Positions 38,485 to 44,730 of a DNA stretch of 55,737 nt are shown piece after piece. Source of the DNA: Oscillospiraceae bacterium (GTDB taxonomy: Bacteria > Bacillota > Clostridia > Oscillospirales > Oscillospiraceae); the NCBI GenBank assembly GCA_017444665.1, contig JAFSWC010000088.1, forward strand, positions 1-55,737, in the 5' to 3' direction. Position numbers and translations under genes: made by a program. Numbering within the stretch: position 1 is the first letter of the stretch; each line of letters begins with the position of its first letter. The notes below the pieces were generated by a model. It did not search any database. It was given only the letters and a program-made list of their open reading frames with translations, and was not told the origin of the DNA.

Positions 38485-39024
38485 TTATCCGATCAGATCG
38501 CTCAGCTCTTTTGCGGCGGCTTTGAGATCGTCGCTGCTGATACGCGCATCGCAGAAGGAGGAAGCCCCGCGCTGCTGCGCGGCGGTCTGCATACGGAGGG
38601 ATAGCTCCAGCTCGCTGCGGCAGATCGCGCGATAGCGCTCTTCCAGCACGCGCTCCGACGGCTCGATATACACGCACAGCGCCTCGGGCATGTTCCGCTT
38701 TACCTGCGCGGCGCGGTCGACCGAGCGGTCGATCATCACGTTAAAGCCCTTGTCCAGCAGCTCCTTCACGAGCCTGCGTGAGGTGCCGTAATCGTTGCCG
38801 GCAAATTCGGTCGTCTCGATCAGGTCGCCGGATTCCTTCAGGGCGTTCCAGCCGTCGAGATCATAGAAATAAAAGCCGACGCCGTCTTTTTCCCCCTCTT
38901 TCATTTTGCGCGCCGTGACCGGCACGACGGGGACGACGTCCTGCCTTTCGGCAAAGACCGCCGCGGCGATATCGCCGAGACCCGCGCCGGACGGGCCGGA
39001 GAGAACGATCAGCTTTTTCCTCAT
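38485..39024 (-). CDS. Guanylate-kinase-like protein lacking the P-loop lysine
   Basis: 179 residues. The fold is that of guanylate kinase: KKLIVLSGPSGAG at the start, TARKMKEGEKDGVGFYFYDL for the GMP-binding region, and FAGNDYGTSRRLVKELLDKG. But the Walker A stretch reads GPSGAGLGD, with Leu at 16 and Asp at 18 where active enzymes have Lys and Thr, and the lid region with its catalytic arginine pattern (R-G-T/R-x-x-E) is replaced by ERYRAICRSELELSLRMQ. So it is probably not an active guanylate kinase; a nucleotide-binding or regulatory role is possible. GGGAGG precedes the ATG. It is divergent from larB and shares a G/C palindrome with the cbiM promoter. Confidence 0.82.
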   Translation of the reverse strand: MRKKLIVLSGPSGAGLGDIAAAVFAERQDVVPVVPVTARKMKEGEKDGVGFYFYDLDGWNALKESGDLIETTEFAGNDYGTSRRLVKELLDKGFNVMIDRSVDRAAQVKRNMPEALCVYIEPSERVLEERYRAICRSELELSLRMQTAAQQRGASSFCDARISSDDLKAAAKELSDLIG

Positions 39025-39085: not shown

Positions 39086-39100
39086 GCCCCCGAGGGGGAT
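39086..39100. promoter_or_regulatory. G/C-tract palindrome, candidate metal-regulator operator (site 1)
   Basis: On the reverse strand it reads ATCCCCCTCGGGGGC and runs one base later into the -35 TTGCCG of the guanylate-kinase-like gene. It also lies 18 bp upstream of the larB -35 box. Site 2 before cbiM is nearly identical in sequence and position. Paired G/C tracts are the operator type of CsoR/RcnR-family metal repressors; assignment to that family is inference. Confidence 0.6.
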
Positions 39101-39117
39101 TTCGTTTTTGCTGCGTC

Positions 39118-39146
39118 TTGCCAAACGGCGTGTTTTTGGATATACT
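39118..39146 (+). promoter_or_regulatory. Promoter of larBEC
   Basis: TTGCCA (39118-39123), 17 bp, TATACT (39141-39146), about 46 bp before the larB start. Confidence 0.75.
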
Positions 39147-39191
39147 GGGCGCATGAAAAATTCCCTCAAAGGGCAAGGAGATGCAATCGAA

Positions 39192-39944
39192 ATGGACAAA
39201 ACGGAGCTGACAGGGCTGCTGCAGGCCGTGGCGGAGGGCTCGCTGAGCCCGGAGGACGCCGCGCTGAAGCTCAAGACCCAGCCCTTTGAAGAGATCGGCA
39301 GCTTTGCCAAGGTGGACTTTCATCGCGGCATCCGCCAGGGCGTGCCGGAGATCATCTACGGCGCAGGCAAGGCCAACGAGCATATCCTGGGCATCGCACG
39401 TAGGATGCACGAGCGCGGCCAGTCCCCGATCCTGATCACCCGTCTGACGCAGGAGGCGGCGGATCTTGTTGCCGCCGAGCTGCCGCTGCGCTACGATGCT
39501 CTGTCTAAGGTCGGCATCGTCGGCGACATGCCCGTCCCGACCGGAAAAGGGACGGTTCTTGTCGCGACCGGCGGCACCAGCGACATCCCCGTGGCCGAGG
39601 AGGCCGCGCTGACGGCCGAGGTGCTGGGTAATAAAGTCGTGCGGCTGTACGACGTGGGCGTGTCCGGCATCCACCGGCTGCTGTCCCACATGGAGGATAT
39701 CATGTCCGCGCGCGTGATCGTCGCCGTCGCGGGGATGGAGGGGGCGCTGCCCTCGGTCGTCGGCGGGCTGGCCGACTGCCCGGTCATCGCCGTTCCGACC
39801 AGCGTCGGCTACGGGGCCAGTCTCGGCGGCGTGGCGGCGCTGCTGTCGATGCTCAACTCCTGCGCCAGCGGCGTGGCGGTCGTGAATATCGACAACGGCT
39901 TCGGCGCAGGCTATATGGCCAGCGTCATCAACCATCTGGACTGA
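39192..39944 (+). CDS. larB: Nickel-pincer cofactor biosynthesis protein LarB
   Basis: 250 residues from the ATG at 39192, preferred because AAGGAGA lies upstream and the promoter lies 46 bp before it; an ATG at 39153 would leave almost no leader. The N-terminal helical region (LTGLLQAVAEGSLSPEDAAL) is followed by a PurE-like fold with DFHRGIRQGVPEIIYGAGKA, VATGGTSDIPVAEEAALTAE and the conserved VAGMEGALPSVVGGLADCPV IAVPTSVGYGA. LarB carboxylates and hydrolyses nicotinic acid adenine dinucleotide, the first step to the nickel-pincer cofactor. It is the first gene of the tight larBEC operon. Confidence 0.95.
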   Translation: MDKTELTGLLQAVAEGSLSPEDAALKLKTQPFEEIGSFAKVDFHRGIRQGVPEIIYGAGKANEHILGIARRMHERGQSPILITRLTQEAADLVAAELPLRYDALSKVGIVGDMPVPTGKGTVLVATGGTSDIPVAEEAALTAEVLGNKVVRLYDVGVSGIHRLLSHMEDIMSARVIVAVAGMEGALPSVVGGLADCPVIAVPTSVGYGASLGGVAALLSMLNSCASGVAVVNIDNGFGAGYMASVINHLD

Positions 39945-40699
39945 TGGAGCTGCGGGTTTTTTTCGCGGCGCATCCGCGCGTGGCGATCGCCTTTTCCGGC
40001 GGGGTCGACTCCTCCTATCTGCTGTATGCCGCGCTGCAAAAGGCCGAGAGCGTGGGCGTGTACTACGTCCGCTCCGCCTTTCAGCCGGAATTTGAAGCTG
40101 ACGACGCGCTGCGTCTGGCGCGGGAGCTTGGCGCCTCTGTCACGGTGCTGCGCGCCGACGTGCTTGCCGATGCGCGCGTGGCGGCCAATCCCGCCGAGCG
40201 CTGCTATTATTGCAAAAAGATCATCCTTGCCGCGATCCGCGCGCAGGCGGAGAAGGACGGCTATACCGTGCTGCTCGACGGCACCAACGCAAGCGACGAC
40301 ATCGCCGACCGTCCCGGCTGGCGGGCGCTGCGGGAGGAGGGCGTTTTGAGCCCGCTGCGCCTCTGCGGTCTGACAAAGGCGGAGATCCGCCGTCTGTCAC
40401 AGGAGGCGGGGCTCTTTACCGCGTCCAAGCCCGCCTACGCCTGTCTTGCCACGCGCATCCCCTGCGGCGAGCAGATCACGCGGGAAAAGCTTGCCGCCGT
40501 CGAAGCGGCTGAGAGCGCGCTGTTTGCGATGGGCTTTCGCGACTTTCGCGTGCGGACGCCCGGCGGTGCGGCGCTTGTGCAGGTCACAGCCGACCAGACG
40601 GCGTTGGCGCGCGAGAAATGGGACGCGATCCGCGCCGCGCTCTCGCCGCTCTTTACGCGCGTGGAGCTGGACGCTAAGGAAAGGAACAGAAGCTTATGA
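39944..40699 (+). CDS. larE: Nickel-pincer cofactor biosynthesis sulfur transferase LarE
   Basis: 251 residues, starting within the last base of the larB stop (TGATG). The PP-loop is AFSGGVDSSYLLYAAL (about 11-26). Further motifs: NPAERCYYCKKIILAAIR, LLDGTNASDD and ASKPAYACLATRIPCGEQIT, whose cysteine is in the position of the sacrificial sulfur donor or iron-sulphur ligand in LarE proteins. A second Cys follows six residues later (RIPC), where many have Tyr, so an Fe-S-bound LarE is possible. It adenylates the carboxylates of the LarB product and converts them to thiocarboxylates. Confidence 0.94.
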   Translation: MELRVFFAAHPRVAIAFSGGVDSSYLLYAALQKAESVGVYYVRSAFQPEFEADDALRLARELGASVTVLRADVLADARVAANPAERCYYCKKIILAAIRAQAEKDGYTVLLDGTNASDDIADRPGWRALREEGVLSPLRLCGLTKAEIRRLSQEAGLFTASKPAYACLATRIPCGEQITREKLAAVEAAESALFAMGFRDFRVRTPGGAALVQVTADQTALAREKWDAIRAALSPLFTRVELDAKERNRSL

Positions 40700-41859
40700 A
40701 AACGCTTTATCTCGACTGCGGCATGGGCGCGGCCGGCGATATGCTGTCCGCGGCGCTGCTGGGTCTGATGCCCGATCGCGCGGCCGTGCTGGAGGAGCTG
40801 AACCGCGCGCTCGGCGGTCTTGCCGTCGTCACGGCTGAGGAAGTAACACGCTGCGGCGTGTGCGGCCTGCATGTCAAGGTCGATATCGCGGGCGACGAGG
40901 AGGGCGAAGCGATCCGTCACCCCCACGCCAACACCTCGATCGGCGCGCTGCGCGCCCTTCTTGCCGCCGCGCCGGTGTCGGACAAGGTGCGCGCCGACGC
41001 GACCGCGGTCTTTGACCTGCTGGCGCAGGCCGAGGCGGATGTGCACGGCGTGGAAATGGAAAACGTGCATTTTCACGAGGTCGGCAGCATCGACGCCGTC
41101 GCGGACGTGCTGGGCGTGTGCCTGCTTGTCGAAAAGCTGGCGCCCGAACGCATTCTGGCCTCCCCCGTCTGCGTCGGCGGCGGGACGGTGAAGTGCGCGC
41201 ACGGTGTTCTGCCCGTCCCCGCCCCGGCGACGGAGCGGCTGCTGCGCGGCATTCCCTGGTATGCCGGTTCGATCGAAAGCGAGCTGTGCACGCCCACCGG
41301 CGCGGCGCTGCTGCGGCATTTCGTCGGCGAGTTTGCGGCGATGCCGCCGATGCTTATCGAGGGCTGCGGCTACGGCATGGGCAAAAAGGAATTCCCGCGG
41401 CTCAACGCGCTGCGCGCCTTTTGGGGCGAGAGCGAGGGCGAGACGGAGGAGCTGTGCGAGCTTGCCTGCAATCTCGACGACATGACCGGCGAGGAGATCG
41501 GCTTCGCGCTGGATCGGCTGTTTGCCGCCGGCGCGCTCGACGCCTGGACAAGTCCGATCGGCATGAAGAAAAGCCGCCCCGGCGTGCTGCTCAGCTGCCT
41601 GTGCCGCGAGGAGAAGCGCGAGGCGCTGCTGCGCTGCTTCTTCCGGCACACGACGACGCTGGGCGTGCGCGAGCGGCGATGCCTGCGCACCTCTCTCGGC
41701 CGGATGACGGAGACGGCGCATACGCCCTACGGCGAGGTGCGCGTCAAGGTCTCGCAGGGCTGGGGCGTGGAGCGCCGCAAGGCTGAGTTTGACGATCTCG
41801 CCGCGCTGGCAAGAGAAAACGGTCTTTCGCTGCGCGAGATAAAGGATTCGATCGAATAA
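40696..41859 (+). CDS. larC: Nickel-pincer cofactor biosynthesis protein LarC
   Basis: 387 residues, start in an ATGA overlap with larE. The N-terminus LYLDCGMGAAGDMLSAALLG and VHFHEVGSIDAVADVLGVCL are LarC hallmarks, as are CTPTGAALLRHFV and ACNLDDMTGEEIGFALDRLF in the C-terminal part. It uses CTP to insert nickel and close the pincer ring. In Lactobacillus plantarum larC is split and joined by programmed frameshifting; here the frame is continuous. No lactate racemase gene (larA) or other pincer enzyme is in the window. Confidence 0.94.
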   Translation: MKTLYLDCGMGAAGDMLSAALLGLMPDRAAVLEELNRALGGLAVVTAEEVTRCGVCGLHVKVDIAGDEEGEAIRHPHANTSIGALRALLAAAPVSDKVRADATAVFDLLAQAEADVHGVEMENVHFHEVGSIDAVADVLGVCLLVEKLAPERILASPVCVGGGTVKCAHGVLPVPAPATERLLRGIPWYAGSIESELCTPTGAALLRHFVGEFAAMPPMLIEGCGYGMGKKEFPRLNALRAFWGESEGETEELCELACNLDDMTGEEIGFALDRLFAAGALDAWTSPIGMKKSRPGVLLSCLCREEKREALLRCFFRHTTTLGVRERRCLRTSLGRMTETAHTPYGEVRVKVSQGWGVERRKAEFDDLAALARENGLSLREIKDSIE

Positions 41860-41866
41860 GCAGATA

Positions 41867-41904
41867 AAAAGGACGCCTGTTCCGAACGGAACAGGCGTCC
41901 TTTT
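41867..41904. terminator. Bidirectional terminator between larC and cbiO
   Basis: An 18-bp inverted repeat (41867-41884 with 41887-41904), with A run before and TTTT after, between the convergent operons. Confidence 0.9.
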
Positions 41905-41908
41905 GCTT

Positions 41909-42631
<723 letters not shown>

Positions 42632-42637
42632 GTTCTC

Positions 42638-43441
42638 TCACCTCACAAAGACGCCGCCCAGGAGCTGCGCCACGTCCACGAACCGCAGCAGCGCGAACAG
42701 CAGAAGACTGCCGGCCAGGAAAACCGCGTCTTTTTTCCCAAAGGGCTTTTGCGGCGCATAGTGGAAATGCTGATGATAGCCGCGCAGCAGCATGCTGGCG
42801 TACAGCTCCTGCGCGCGGTCCATGCTGCGCAGCAGCAGCTGCCCGAGGAAGGAGCCCCAGGCCGAGACGTGGATCCCCTTCTGCCCCGGCGCGCGCAGAT
42901 GGTAGGCGTCGGTCATGACGGCAAGCTCCTCGGTCATCACGCCGACATAGCGATAGGTCAGCAGCAGGAGCGTAACGAGCGTTTTGGGAACGTGAAACTT
43001 GCGCAGCGCGGCGCAGATGCTGTCAAACGGCGTGGTCGCCACCAGCAAAAACGAGGCCATCAGGCACAGCACGCCTTTGAGCATCAAGGTCAGCATGCTG
43101 ACGACGCCGCCCGAGACGGCGATCGTGCCGAGCCGCAGGATGATATGCCGGTCAAAGAAGGGGTTGAACAGCCCCACCGCCATCACCAGCGGCAGCACGA
43201 TGCGCAGCTTGTAAAAGCAGGTGCGGACAGGGATGCCGCTGATCTGAAAGAGCAGCACCGGCCAGAGCAGCAGCGGCGCCAGGCCGCTGAGATCGTACTT
43301 GTCAAAGGACACGACCGTGACAATGTATGCAATTGTCGAGAGCAGCTTCGCCGTCGCGCTTAAGTTGTGGATCGGCGAGGAGCGCGCCGCGAGCTCGTCC
43401 ATTTCGCCGATCTCCTGCAGCGCCTTGTCCATTTTGTTCAT
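42638..43441 (-). CDS. cbiQ: ECF Ni/Co transporter transmembrane coupling protein CbiQ
   Basis: 267 residues, AAAGGA before the ATG. Several membrane helices and the two coupling motifs with Ala-Arg-Gly-like pattern: ARSSPIHNLSATAKLLSTIA at the start, and LRAPGQKG and YASMLLRGYHQHF near the C-terminus, fit the EcfT/CbiQ family. It links the ATPase to the metal-binding subunits. The gap to cbiM is about 150 bp with a hairpin, so the pair may be partly uncoupled in expression. Confidence 0.92.
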   Translation of the reverse strand: MNKMDKALQEIGEMDELAARSSPIHNLSATAKLLSTIAYIVTVVSFDKYDLSGLAPLLLWPVLLFQISGIPVRTCFYKLRIVLPLVMAVGLFNPFFDRHIILRLGTIAVSGGVVSMLTLMLKGVLCLMASFLLVATTPFDSICAALRKFHVPKTLVTLLLLTYRYVGVMTEELAVMTDAYHLRAPGQKGIHVSAWGSFLGQLLLRSMDRAQELYASMLLRGYHQHFHYAPQKPFGKKDAVFLAGSLLLFALLRFVDVAQLLGGVFVR

Positions 43442-43533
43442 GCGGGCAGTCCTTTTTTTTGAAAATACGTCACGGGCAGACTGTGTTATTTTCGCACAAA
43501 AGCGGCGTTCTGTCTACCCTTAAACAACACGAC

Positions 43534-43559
43534 AAGAGGCGTCTTTGCAGACGCCTCTT
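43534..43559 (-). other. Hairpin between cbiM and cbiQ
   Basis: AAGAGGCGTC / GACGCCTCTT (43534-43543 with 43550-43559), 6-base loop, no T run. It may tune cbiQO expression. Next to it, at 43569-43576, lies a single GGGGGGTA tract. Confidence 0.5.
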
Positions 43560-43594
43560 ATCGCTCAAGGGGGGTAGGGATTAAAAAGAGGGGT

Positions 43595-44647
43595 TCAAGT
43601 GTTCTTTTTCTTGCGGAAGAAGCCGCCGGCCAGACAGATCAGCACGGCCACACCGGCGACCATGGCCGAGCCGACAACGCCGGACACCGTGGTGCCGACG
43701 GGCGTGTCGCTGTCGGCAAAGGCGTAGTCCGGCAGGAAGGAGGTGGCCTCCTGGATGCCCGCGGCCGTATCGGCCGCTTTGCTGGACACGCCGAAATCGT
43801 CCTCATCCAGACCCATGTTCTCGGCATAGCCCTCCTCGGCGTTGCCGAAGAGCGCCCACTCGAGCCCGTCGGGGTTGGAGCTGGCCAGCAGGCTCAGCCC
43901 GCCGCCGACCACGAGCGCCACGACAGCCAGGATCGCGATCGTCGCCTTGAGCGAGCGCTTGGCGCCCAGACCCTCGCCCGCCGCGTCGACGTCGCGCAGC
44001 AGCTCGGGACGGGATTCAAACACAAAGGTCAGCACCGCCGCGGTGATCAGGCCCTCGACCAGGCCGATGGCCAGGTGGATCGGCTGCATCAGCGCGACGA
44101 AGGCGCCGAAGGGCAGCTCGGTGATGCCGGAAAGACTGGTTTCCAGCACAACGGAGAAGGCGCCGAGCTGCAGCGTGACCACGCAGCCGATGATCGAGGC
44201 CGCGATGATGCGCGCGCGGATCGCACCCTTGCCCGTGCCGAACCAGTTGCTGCGGATGATCGGCCGCCAGATCAGATAATAACCGACAAAGCAGCCGTAA
44301 AAGGCCATGTTCCAGATATTCGCGCCCAGTGCCATCAATCCGCCGTCGGCAAAGAAGAGACACTGGATCGCCAGGATCACGATCATGGACAGGAAGCCGG
44401 CCTGCGGCCCGAGCAGCGCGGAGAGCAGCATGCCGCCGCACATATGACCAGAAGAGCCCGTGCCGGGGATGGTATAGTTGATCATCTGGCCCGCAAAGAC
44501 CAGAGCGGCGGTAACGGCCATCGTCGGAAGCTTCTGGGGCTCGTCATCGCGCTTGAGCTTGTGGATGGAAATGCCGGCCGTCGTGCCGGAGGCCACGTAC
44601 ATCGTCGCGGCTACCGCGGGCGCCAGCAGAGCGTCTGCCATATGCAT
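43595..44647 (-). CDS. cbiM: ECF Ni/Co transporter substrate subunit CbiM fused to a CbiN/PDGLE domain
   Basis: 350 residues from the ATG at 44647, chosen because CbiM proteins start M-H-M-A-D-A-L (MHMADALLAPAVAATMYVAS); the N-terminal His2 is the metal ligand. AGAGAGGTG lies before it. The CbiM domain (about 1-215) has several helices and YTIPGTGSSGHMCGGMLLSA LLGPQAG, with GSSGH typical for it. The C-terminal part has two helices and the PDGLE-motif (SNPDGLEWALFGNAEEGY) of CbiN-like proteins. So the separate M and N subunits are fused. It takes up Ni2+ or Co2+. Confidence 0.93.
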   Translation of the reverse strand: MHMADALLAPAVAATMYVASGTTAGISIHKLKRDDEPQKLPTMAVTAALVFAGQMINYTIPGTGSSGHMCGGMLLSALLGPQAGFLSMIVILAIQCLFFADGGLMALGANIWNMAFYGCFVGYYLIWRPIIRSNWFGTGKGAIRARIIAASIIGCVVTLQLGAFSVVLETSLSGITELPFGAFVALMQPIHLAIGLVEGLITAAVLTFVFESRPELLRDVDAAGEGLGAKRSLKATIAILAVVALVVGGGLSLLASSNPDGLEWALFGNAEEGYAENMGLDEDDFGVSSKAADTAAGIQEATSFLPDYAFADSDTPVGTTVSGVVGSAMVAGVAVLICLAGGFFRKKKNT

Positions 44648-44686
44648 GGAATACACCTCTCTCGTATTGCTTGATGCATCGACTGT

Positions 44687-44715
44687 AGTATAAAGCAGCC
44701 CTTTTTCCCGCACAA
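44687..44715 (-). promoter_or_regulatory. Promoter of the cbiMQO genes
   Basis: TTGTGC (44710-44715), exactly 17 bp, TATACT (44687-44692), 40 bp before the start codon. Confidence 0.75.
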
Positions 44716-44730
44716 GCCCCCCGGGGGGAT
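44716..44730. promoter_or_regulatory. G/C-tract palindrome, candidate metal-regulator operator (site 2)
   Basis: On the reverse strand ATCCCCCCGGGGGGC runs into the -35 TTGTGC, the same one-base spacing as site 1. The core is a perfect 12-bp palindrome. The two sites agree at 16 of 18 positions over AT...CTTG. Confidence 0.6.

Follow-up and report, generated by a model that had tools for sequence, protein, structure and literature searches.

Several described systems bear on the control of nickel import. Nickel sensors of the CsoR/RcnR family bind DNA in the metal-free state and release it when metal-loaded, and repressors of import, NikR and Nur among them, bind DNA in their metal-loaded form (PMC7055735, here and below as far as an excerpt of that paper goes). 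InrS of Synechocystis is mainly described as the regulator of the exporter NrsD, and is said in addition to bind upstream of the nik operon and to enhance import (PMC7055735, excerpt). RcnR of Escherichia coli, which regulates an exporter, has a G-tract operator of the form TACT-G6-N-AGTA and carries a histidine in place of the last cysteine (PMC7055735, excerpt). Here, we have analyzed a 55,737-nucleotide stretch of DNA from a gut bacterium of the Oscillospiraceae, referred to throughout as the window, in which two nearly identical G/C palindromes, site A and site B, stand before a guanylate-kinase-like (GK-like) gene beside larBEC and before the cbiMQO genes of an energy-coupling factor (ECF) nickel/cobalt importer. 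We propose, with a probability of about 0.7, that these palindromes are operators of a metal-uptake regulon, most likely for nickel, that does without NikR and is read by a histidine-rich, InrS-like member of the CsoR/RcnR family.

The solved chains closest to the candidate regulator are 6ahx (E value 1.8e-23) and InrS itself (5fmn, 3.8e-21), with CsoR behind (1.2e-11), and the cysteine and the His/Cys pair of InrS align, as do histidines near the N terminus. The system described here differs from InrS in that its sites precede importers, occupy a rigid place near -42 and are found in Clostridia. RcnR belongs to the same Pfam family (PF02583), of which the candidate is clearly a member (93.2 bits against a cut-off of 22.8), but on the NCBIfam RcnR model the candidate scores 36.7 bits against a cut-off of 138 and is thus not an RcnR equivalog. 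NikR and Nur perform the same job of nickel-dependent import control (PMC7055735, excerpt). They are, however, proteins unrelated to the candidate, and a search for NikR (PF08753) matched none of 102 same-genus genomes, which rules NikR out as the reader of the palindromes. Small RNAs tied to nickel regulation include NikS of Helicobacter pylori, which is controlled by NikR, and the RNA from the sodF 3' untranslated region of Streptomyces; a structured RNA reported below would share with them a tie to nickel regulation, and has no Rfam match in the nine loci scanned. No report of such a regulon or RNA was found in the literature searched, which comprised open-licence papers. For Clostridia of gut and rumen in which NikR is missing, the proposal provides a nickel regulon that can be tested, since operator, promoter geometry and a candidate sensor are all specified. 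If it is true, a family best known for relieving the repression of metal export would gain a regulator of uptake.

Palindromes at importer promoters

Sites A and B, together with the TTG that follows each, are identical at 16 of 18 positions, and both lie on the minus strand next to a -35-like hexamer and a TATACT, just as the initial annotation of the window had described; site A was likewise correctly placed between divergent promoters, which are those of the GK-like gene and larB (Table 1). The scan of the full genome proposed with that annotation, performed on a 1.63-Mb assembly that is 69% complete, returned only sites A and B as exact matches to ATCCCCCNNGGGGGC, and none of four one-mismatch matches continues with CTT. 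Within the window, five matches with two mismatches were seen where 2.12 are expected, a count equalled or exceeded in 9 of 100 shuffles, and two of the five are sites A and B read on the opposite strand. By this count, a motif could not be established from the window by itself.

Across the genus, the exact 15-mer is present in 93 of 102 genomes, and a reversed-pattern control gave three matches in total. From among the matches listed, 119 distinct sites distributed over 90 loci were examined. The sequences were retrieved either as loci or as hand-chosen regions, sites of identical 80-base context were merged before counting, and nearby genes were called with a codon-scored caller. The great majority (108 of 119) extend to ATCCCCCNNGGGGGCTT, and only two of these overlap a called open reading frame (ORF), both near its end; nine of the 11 sites without the CTT fall within ORFs. 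A 22-position matrix was built from the 108 CTT-extended sites, sites A and B included, and it ranks site B and then site A highest in the window, the next best score being 8.9. The position of the -10 element is nearly fixed, with TAnnnT starting 38 bases from the motif start at 93 sites, 39 at nine and 37 at five, such that 107 of 108 sites carry it at an offset of 37 to 39 and a single site lacks it. At the -35 position, TTCCGC and TTGCGG are the hexamers seen most often, and none of the 108 sites has TTGACA. Assuming that transcription starts about seven bases past the -10 element, the center of the dyad falls at about -42 and adjoins this poor -35 hexamer. A center near -42 is the place of class II activators, and near-invariant spacing combined with a poor -35 is more typical of activator-dependent promoters. 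With the start site inferred in this way, the promoters have the layout of the class II activator type, namely a site near -41/-42, fixed spacing and a poor -35. In addition, the 108 sites show an A/T-rich stretch ahead of the palindrome, at positions -17 to -3 upstream of the motif, that resembles an UP element.

Examination of the first feature downstream of the 108 sites reveals many importer genes: CbiM at 23 sites, FecCD permeases at 11, NikA-like members of substrate-binding protein family 5 at six, FecB-like proteins at five, NikB-like binding-protein-dependent permeases at four and an ATP-binding cassette (ABC) ATPase at one. The others are a structured RNA (25), methyltransferases (10 and 3), the CsoR/RcnR-family regulator (7), AstE/AspA-like proteins (6) and GK-like proteins (2), with no feature called at five sites. 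These names derive from scanned cluster representatives and from BLAST comparison with the window proteins, the other clusters being named by eye or left unnamed; the NikA-like protein has Opp5A_nikA as its best match, at 291.5 against a cut-off of 600. Searching by protein, which makes the test independent of how the motif was chosen, found CbiM in 51 of the 102 genomes, and all 30 CbiM loci fetched in this way, including that of the window, carry a site 74 to 88 bases upstream (matrix score above 15, the lowest being 18.3 in L290), although some of these sites are also part of the matrix training set. The expectation that the palindrome would be conserved upstream of cbi genes in relatives was borne out. 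Among named organisms, 67 of 78 readable CbiM loci have the site, including Lachnospiraceae bacterium G11, presumably a cultured strain; this set comprised 80 loci, from which L363 and L364 were dropped as no start was found, and it overlaps with the 30 genus loci. One methyltransferase family recurs under the motif beside NikB-like and FecCD-type importers (L093, L095 and others), for which a metallophore-like role is possible.

A candidate regulator of the InrS type

Two CsoR/RcnR-family genes are present in the genome that contains the window, on contigs C35 and C42. The C42 gene is the candidate regulator, and strong relatives of it (best E value of 1e-18 or lower) occur in 89 of the 102 genus genomes. 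The arrangement C-x24-H-x3-C is seen in all 42 regulators that were read from 46 loci, of which the cysteine is required by the search pattern itself, and all 42 carry 6 to 14 histidines in the 35 residues before helix 1. At the level of sequence, the candidate thus has the InrS-type combination of N-terminal histidines near a C-H-C site. A site lies upstream of the regulator gene in 19 of 30 genus genes read by matrix; the regulator loci read in this way leave out L250, L259, L261 and L263, where the pattern found no match, and L116, which had been given a wrong start. By coordinates, G047 is a twentieth such gene, and regulator genes of other genera with a site just upstream are those of G440, G234 and G229 (the second copy). 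This placement would make the regulator autoregulatory in part of the genus.

C-tract/G-tract dyads are the type of site used by the CsoR/RcnR family. Such dyads are also found at the C35 gene (L007), which looks like a copper CsoR; CsoR belongs to the same family as the candidate. The C35 promoter nevertheless differs from the motif promoters, having a TTGACA hexamer and dyads, ATACCCC..GGGTAT and ATACCCCC..GGGGTAT, that lie from the spacer onward downstream. The gene adjoins an ORF labeled by eye as P-type-ATPase-like, and provides a contrast to the motif promoters within one genome.

Motif and regulator occur together across the family. A sample of 400 genomes contained 85 with the motif and 172 with the regulator; 79 genomes have both, six the motif only, 93 the regulator only and 222 neither. 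All 32 genera with the motif fall within the 52 genera, out of 106, that have the regulator (chance probability 1e-13). It is important to point out that the exact pattern misses variant sites. Within the genus, where motif and regulator are each almost ubiquitous, 83 of the 102 genomes have both, 10 the motif only, six the regulator only and three neither; the 10 motif-only genomes are represented by assemblies that are 68-84% complete, from which genes may be missing.

A structured RNA under the same promoter

At 25 of the 108 sites, the promoter precedes a conserved sequence that starts with AGATCAGATG or nearly so. Reading through to a closing GC-rich hairpin was possible for 22 of the 25 copies, which measure 73-134 nt. 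Five copies folded singly have energies below those of shuffled controls (z -2.3 to -4.1), and both-sided changes are seen at 11 of 19 predicted pairs in an alignment of 20 RNAs. L187, which has the RNA promoter and no clear closing hairpin, was kept in alignment A1 and excluded from A2 and from covariance model R1, and the short forms L141, L160, L166 and L178_18034 were excluded from the RNA model. The covariance model, applied with stricter search filters for the genome counts, matches 47 of the 102 genus genomes, and did not find the RNA in the 69%-complete genome that holds the window. In the family sample, it matches six of 400 genomes, four of them weakly and outside the genus (L307 with the upstream site, L308-L310 without). 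The upstream site is present at each of the 30 loci that the model retrieved, with one changed base in L199, L212 and L217 and one extra base in L223, and 17 of these 30 lie outside the training set. An Rfam match to pemK RNA (RF02913, 44.1 bits) is located at L140:6674-6766, about 400 bases from the structured RNA.

The unpaired C/U-rich boxes of the RNA suggest pairing with ribosome-binding sites, and the conserved RNA could be a nickel counterpart of the iron-sparing RNAs. In its widest form, which we put forward only tentatively and would not bet on, the proposal is that a large clade of gut Clostridia may have a CsoR-family protein as its master regulator for nickel: free of nickel, this protein would activate from the rigid -42 site the importers, the gene that encodes it (in many species), and a 'nickel-sparing' small RNA that acts in trans and would pair through exposed CCCUC, CACCUCUC and UCUCUCU boxes with the ribosome-binding sites of nickel-using proteins, as a counterpart of Fur-RyhB/FsrA.

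Several of the RNA loci also hold a second, CsoR-like paralogue near the RNA, in which the cysteine is kept and the His and Cys ligand positions are gone. Variant C-run/G-run palindromes lie upstream of this paralogue in L145, L159 and L174.

Proposed mechanism, alternatives and window genes

In the mechanism that we favor, the nickel-free regulator would bind the C5-NN-G5 dyad (ATCCCCCCGGGGGGCTTG, ATCCCCCNNGGGGGCTTG) at a position centered some 42 bp ahead of the transcription start, abutting the weak -35, and would help RNA polymerase to transcribe the importer genes, whereas binding of nickel would release the regulator so that import drops when nickel is plentiful. Within the window, cbiMQO would be controlled in this way, as would the GK-like gene next to larBEC, the latter in this species and the one closest to it. 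Related genomes would use this promoter for further ABC importers, frequently for the gene of the regulator, and for the structured RNA. On balance we lean toward activation by the nickel-free form. Activation is suggested by the fixed place near -42 and the weak -35, and its dependence on the nickel-free state fits because nickel-sensing members of this family occupy DNA in the metal-free state and because importers are needed when metal is scarce.

The initial annotation had envisaged one nickel-responsive regulator, coded elsewhere, that controls both metal import and cofactor synthesis. The import half is strongly supported, with a likely CsoR/RcnR-family reader on C42. Nickel control of cofactor synthesis as a general feature is not supported, and conservation of the palindrome upstream of lar genes failed to appear in relatives: of 40 lar loci fetched from relatives, 32 yielded larB, and a strong site lies near it in one of the 32 only, that of the closest relative (G032). 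The G032 site is the same GK-facing site, and in both genomes the geometry fits the divergent GK-like gene, pointing away from larB. On this basis, lar genes were rejected as general members of the regulon. Weak matches near larB in L047 (10.1), L048 (8.2) and L058 (8.9) score far lower than the genuine sites and were put down to chance. None of the genes directly following the 108 sites was recognized as larA, main-cluster representatives having been scanned and no larA-directed search made.

Apart from the lar result, a number of observations weigh against the proposed regulon. In the family sample of 400 genomes, the regulator occurs without an exact motif in 93 and the motif without a regulator match in six, and common descent inflates the co-occurrence seen across families. 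Motif and regulator are not significantly associated within the genus (Fisher p 0.09), as the motif is present in 10 of 13 genomes without a strong regulator match (E value above 1e-18) and the regulator in six of nine genomes without the exact motif. The regulator gene of the window's own genome and its closest orthologues (L108-L115) have no site, likewise L121 and L123, and among nine regulator loci outside the genus only L248 has one by matrix. Furthermore, 11 of the 78 named CbiM loci lack the site, and neither the FecCD/FecB-like importers nor the methyltransferases and AstE/AspA-like enzymes are established as nickel genes. Finally, binding by the regulator, response to metal and expression from these promoters are predictions from sequence.

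It is conceivable that sites A and B are chance palindromes in a G+C-rich genome, since the two-mismatch count in the window is not unusual and 11 of the 119 genus 15-mers lack the CTT, nine of them inside ORFs. We consider this exceedingly improbable in view of the fixed geometry and gene classes of the 108 sites and the presence of a site at 30 of 30 CbiM genes; together with the motif in 93 of 102 genomes, these rule out chance repeats. Alternatively, the palindrome could be read by another transcription factor, with the histidine-rich regulator merely a member of the same regulon. The missing site at the window genome's own regulator gene, the motif in 10 of the 13 genomes of the genus that lack a strong regulator match and the absence of the regulator from six of 85 motif genomes of the family sample would all agree with this. 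However, we judge it quite unlikely, as every one of the 32 motif genera lies inside the 52 regulator genera and dyads of the C-tract/G-tract kind also occur at the C35 gene. NikR was the one regulator family searched for besides CsoR/RcnR.

With respect to the signal, CbiM/CbiQ transporters can carry cobalt, and gene families alone do not fix the metal. Cobalt or another metal in place of nickel nevertheless seems decidedly unlikely given the InrS-like ligand spacing and histidine-rich N terminus, the best match of the NikA-like protein to Opp5A_nikA (though below cut-off), the presence after some RNA loci of a gene with a CobW/HypB/UreG domain and of one LarC-like gene (52% identity), and an Rfam scan that found no family at cut-off in the window and hence no cobalamin riboswitch. 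The same operator and regulator could also act by the reverse logic, in which the nickel-bound form binds and represses the importers by covering the -35, as NikR does and with the allostery of CsoR inverted. The site does abut the -35, and the import repressors NikR and Nur bind metal-loaded; yet such repression is rather doubtful, because the spacing is nearly invariant (107 of 108) with a poor -35 and the nickel sensors of this family let go of DNA when metal-loaded (PMC7055735, excerpt). Site A, which lies between both promoters here and in G032, might in addition control larBEC. We think this unlikely, as none of the other 31 relatives' larB loci has a strong site near larB (L071 being cut at a contig end) and the orientation and spacing of the motif fit the GK-like gene. 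Lastly, the structured RNA might belong to the following gene, as its 5' leader or attenuator, rather than be a free small RNA, since a same-strand gene was called within 500 bases at 16 of the 25 RNA sites. Those genes belong to many clusters, however, no gene was called at the remaining nine, and the RNA is closed by a hairpin, all of which makes a leader improbable.

Table 1. Locations of the palindromes, promoters, genes and RNA copies discussed in the text. Positions without a prefix refer to the window; C and L prefixes denote contigs and loci.
Feature	Location	Strand	Remarks
Site A, operator-like palindrome ATCCCCCTCGGGGGC(TT)	39086-39100, core 39087-39098	minus	matrix score 25.7; identical 15-mer in closest relative G032
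Site B, operator-like palindrome ATCCCCCCGGGGGGC(TT), cbiMQO promoter	44716-44730	minus	matrix score 37.4
GK-like gene promoter, -35-like TTGCCG	39085-39080	minus	same geometry as in the 108 read sites
GK-like gene promoter, -10 TATACT	39061-39056	minus	spacer 18; offset 39 from motif start
cbiM promoter, -35-like TTGTGC and -10 TATACT	44715-44710 and 44692-44687 (whole 44687-44715)	minus	spacer 17; offset 38
larB promoter, TTGCCA, N17, TATACT	39118-39123 and 39141-39146	plus	site A centered about -60 from inferred larB start
GK-like gene, putative target of site A	38485-39024	minus	PF00625, 87.3 bits; altered P-loop GPSGAGLGD, Lys absent
larB	39192-39944	plus	NF033503, 285.7 bits
larE	39944-40699	plus	TIGR00268, 233.7 bits
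larC	40696-41859	plus	TIGR00299 and NF052512
CbiO-like ECF ATPase	41909-42631	minus	profile matches
CbiQ, ECF transmembrane subunit	42638-43441	minus	TIGR02454, 125.3 bits
CbiM with PDGLE, substrate-binding subunit of ECF Ni/Co importer	43595-44647	minus	PF01891, PF13190; start chosen at MHMADALL
Candidate regulator, His-rich InrS-like CsoR/RcnR-family gene	C42:25123-25467		His-rich N terminus
Structured RNA, example copy	L138:3021-3144	minus	
Structured RNA, example copy	L172:8065-8189	minus	
Structured RNA, example copy	L145:1738-1861	plus	
CsoR-like paralogue	L145:1167-1367	minus	
CsoR-like paralogue	L159:1830-2033	minus	
CsoR-like paralogue	L174:672-866	plus	
CsoR-like paralogue, further loci	L140, L150		

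Site B precedes genes in the order cbiM(PDGLE)-cbiQ-cbiO. The guanylate kinase at G000:C49 of the same genome has an intact P-loop, and the GK-like protein of the window is a second, divergent one.

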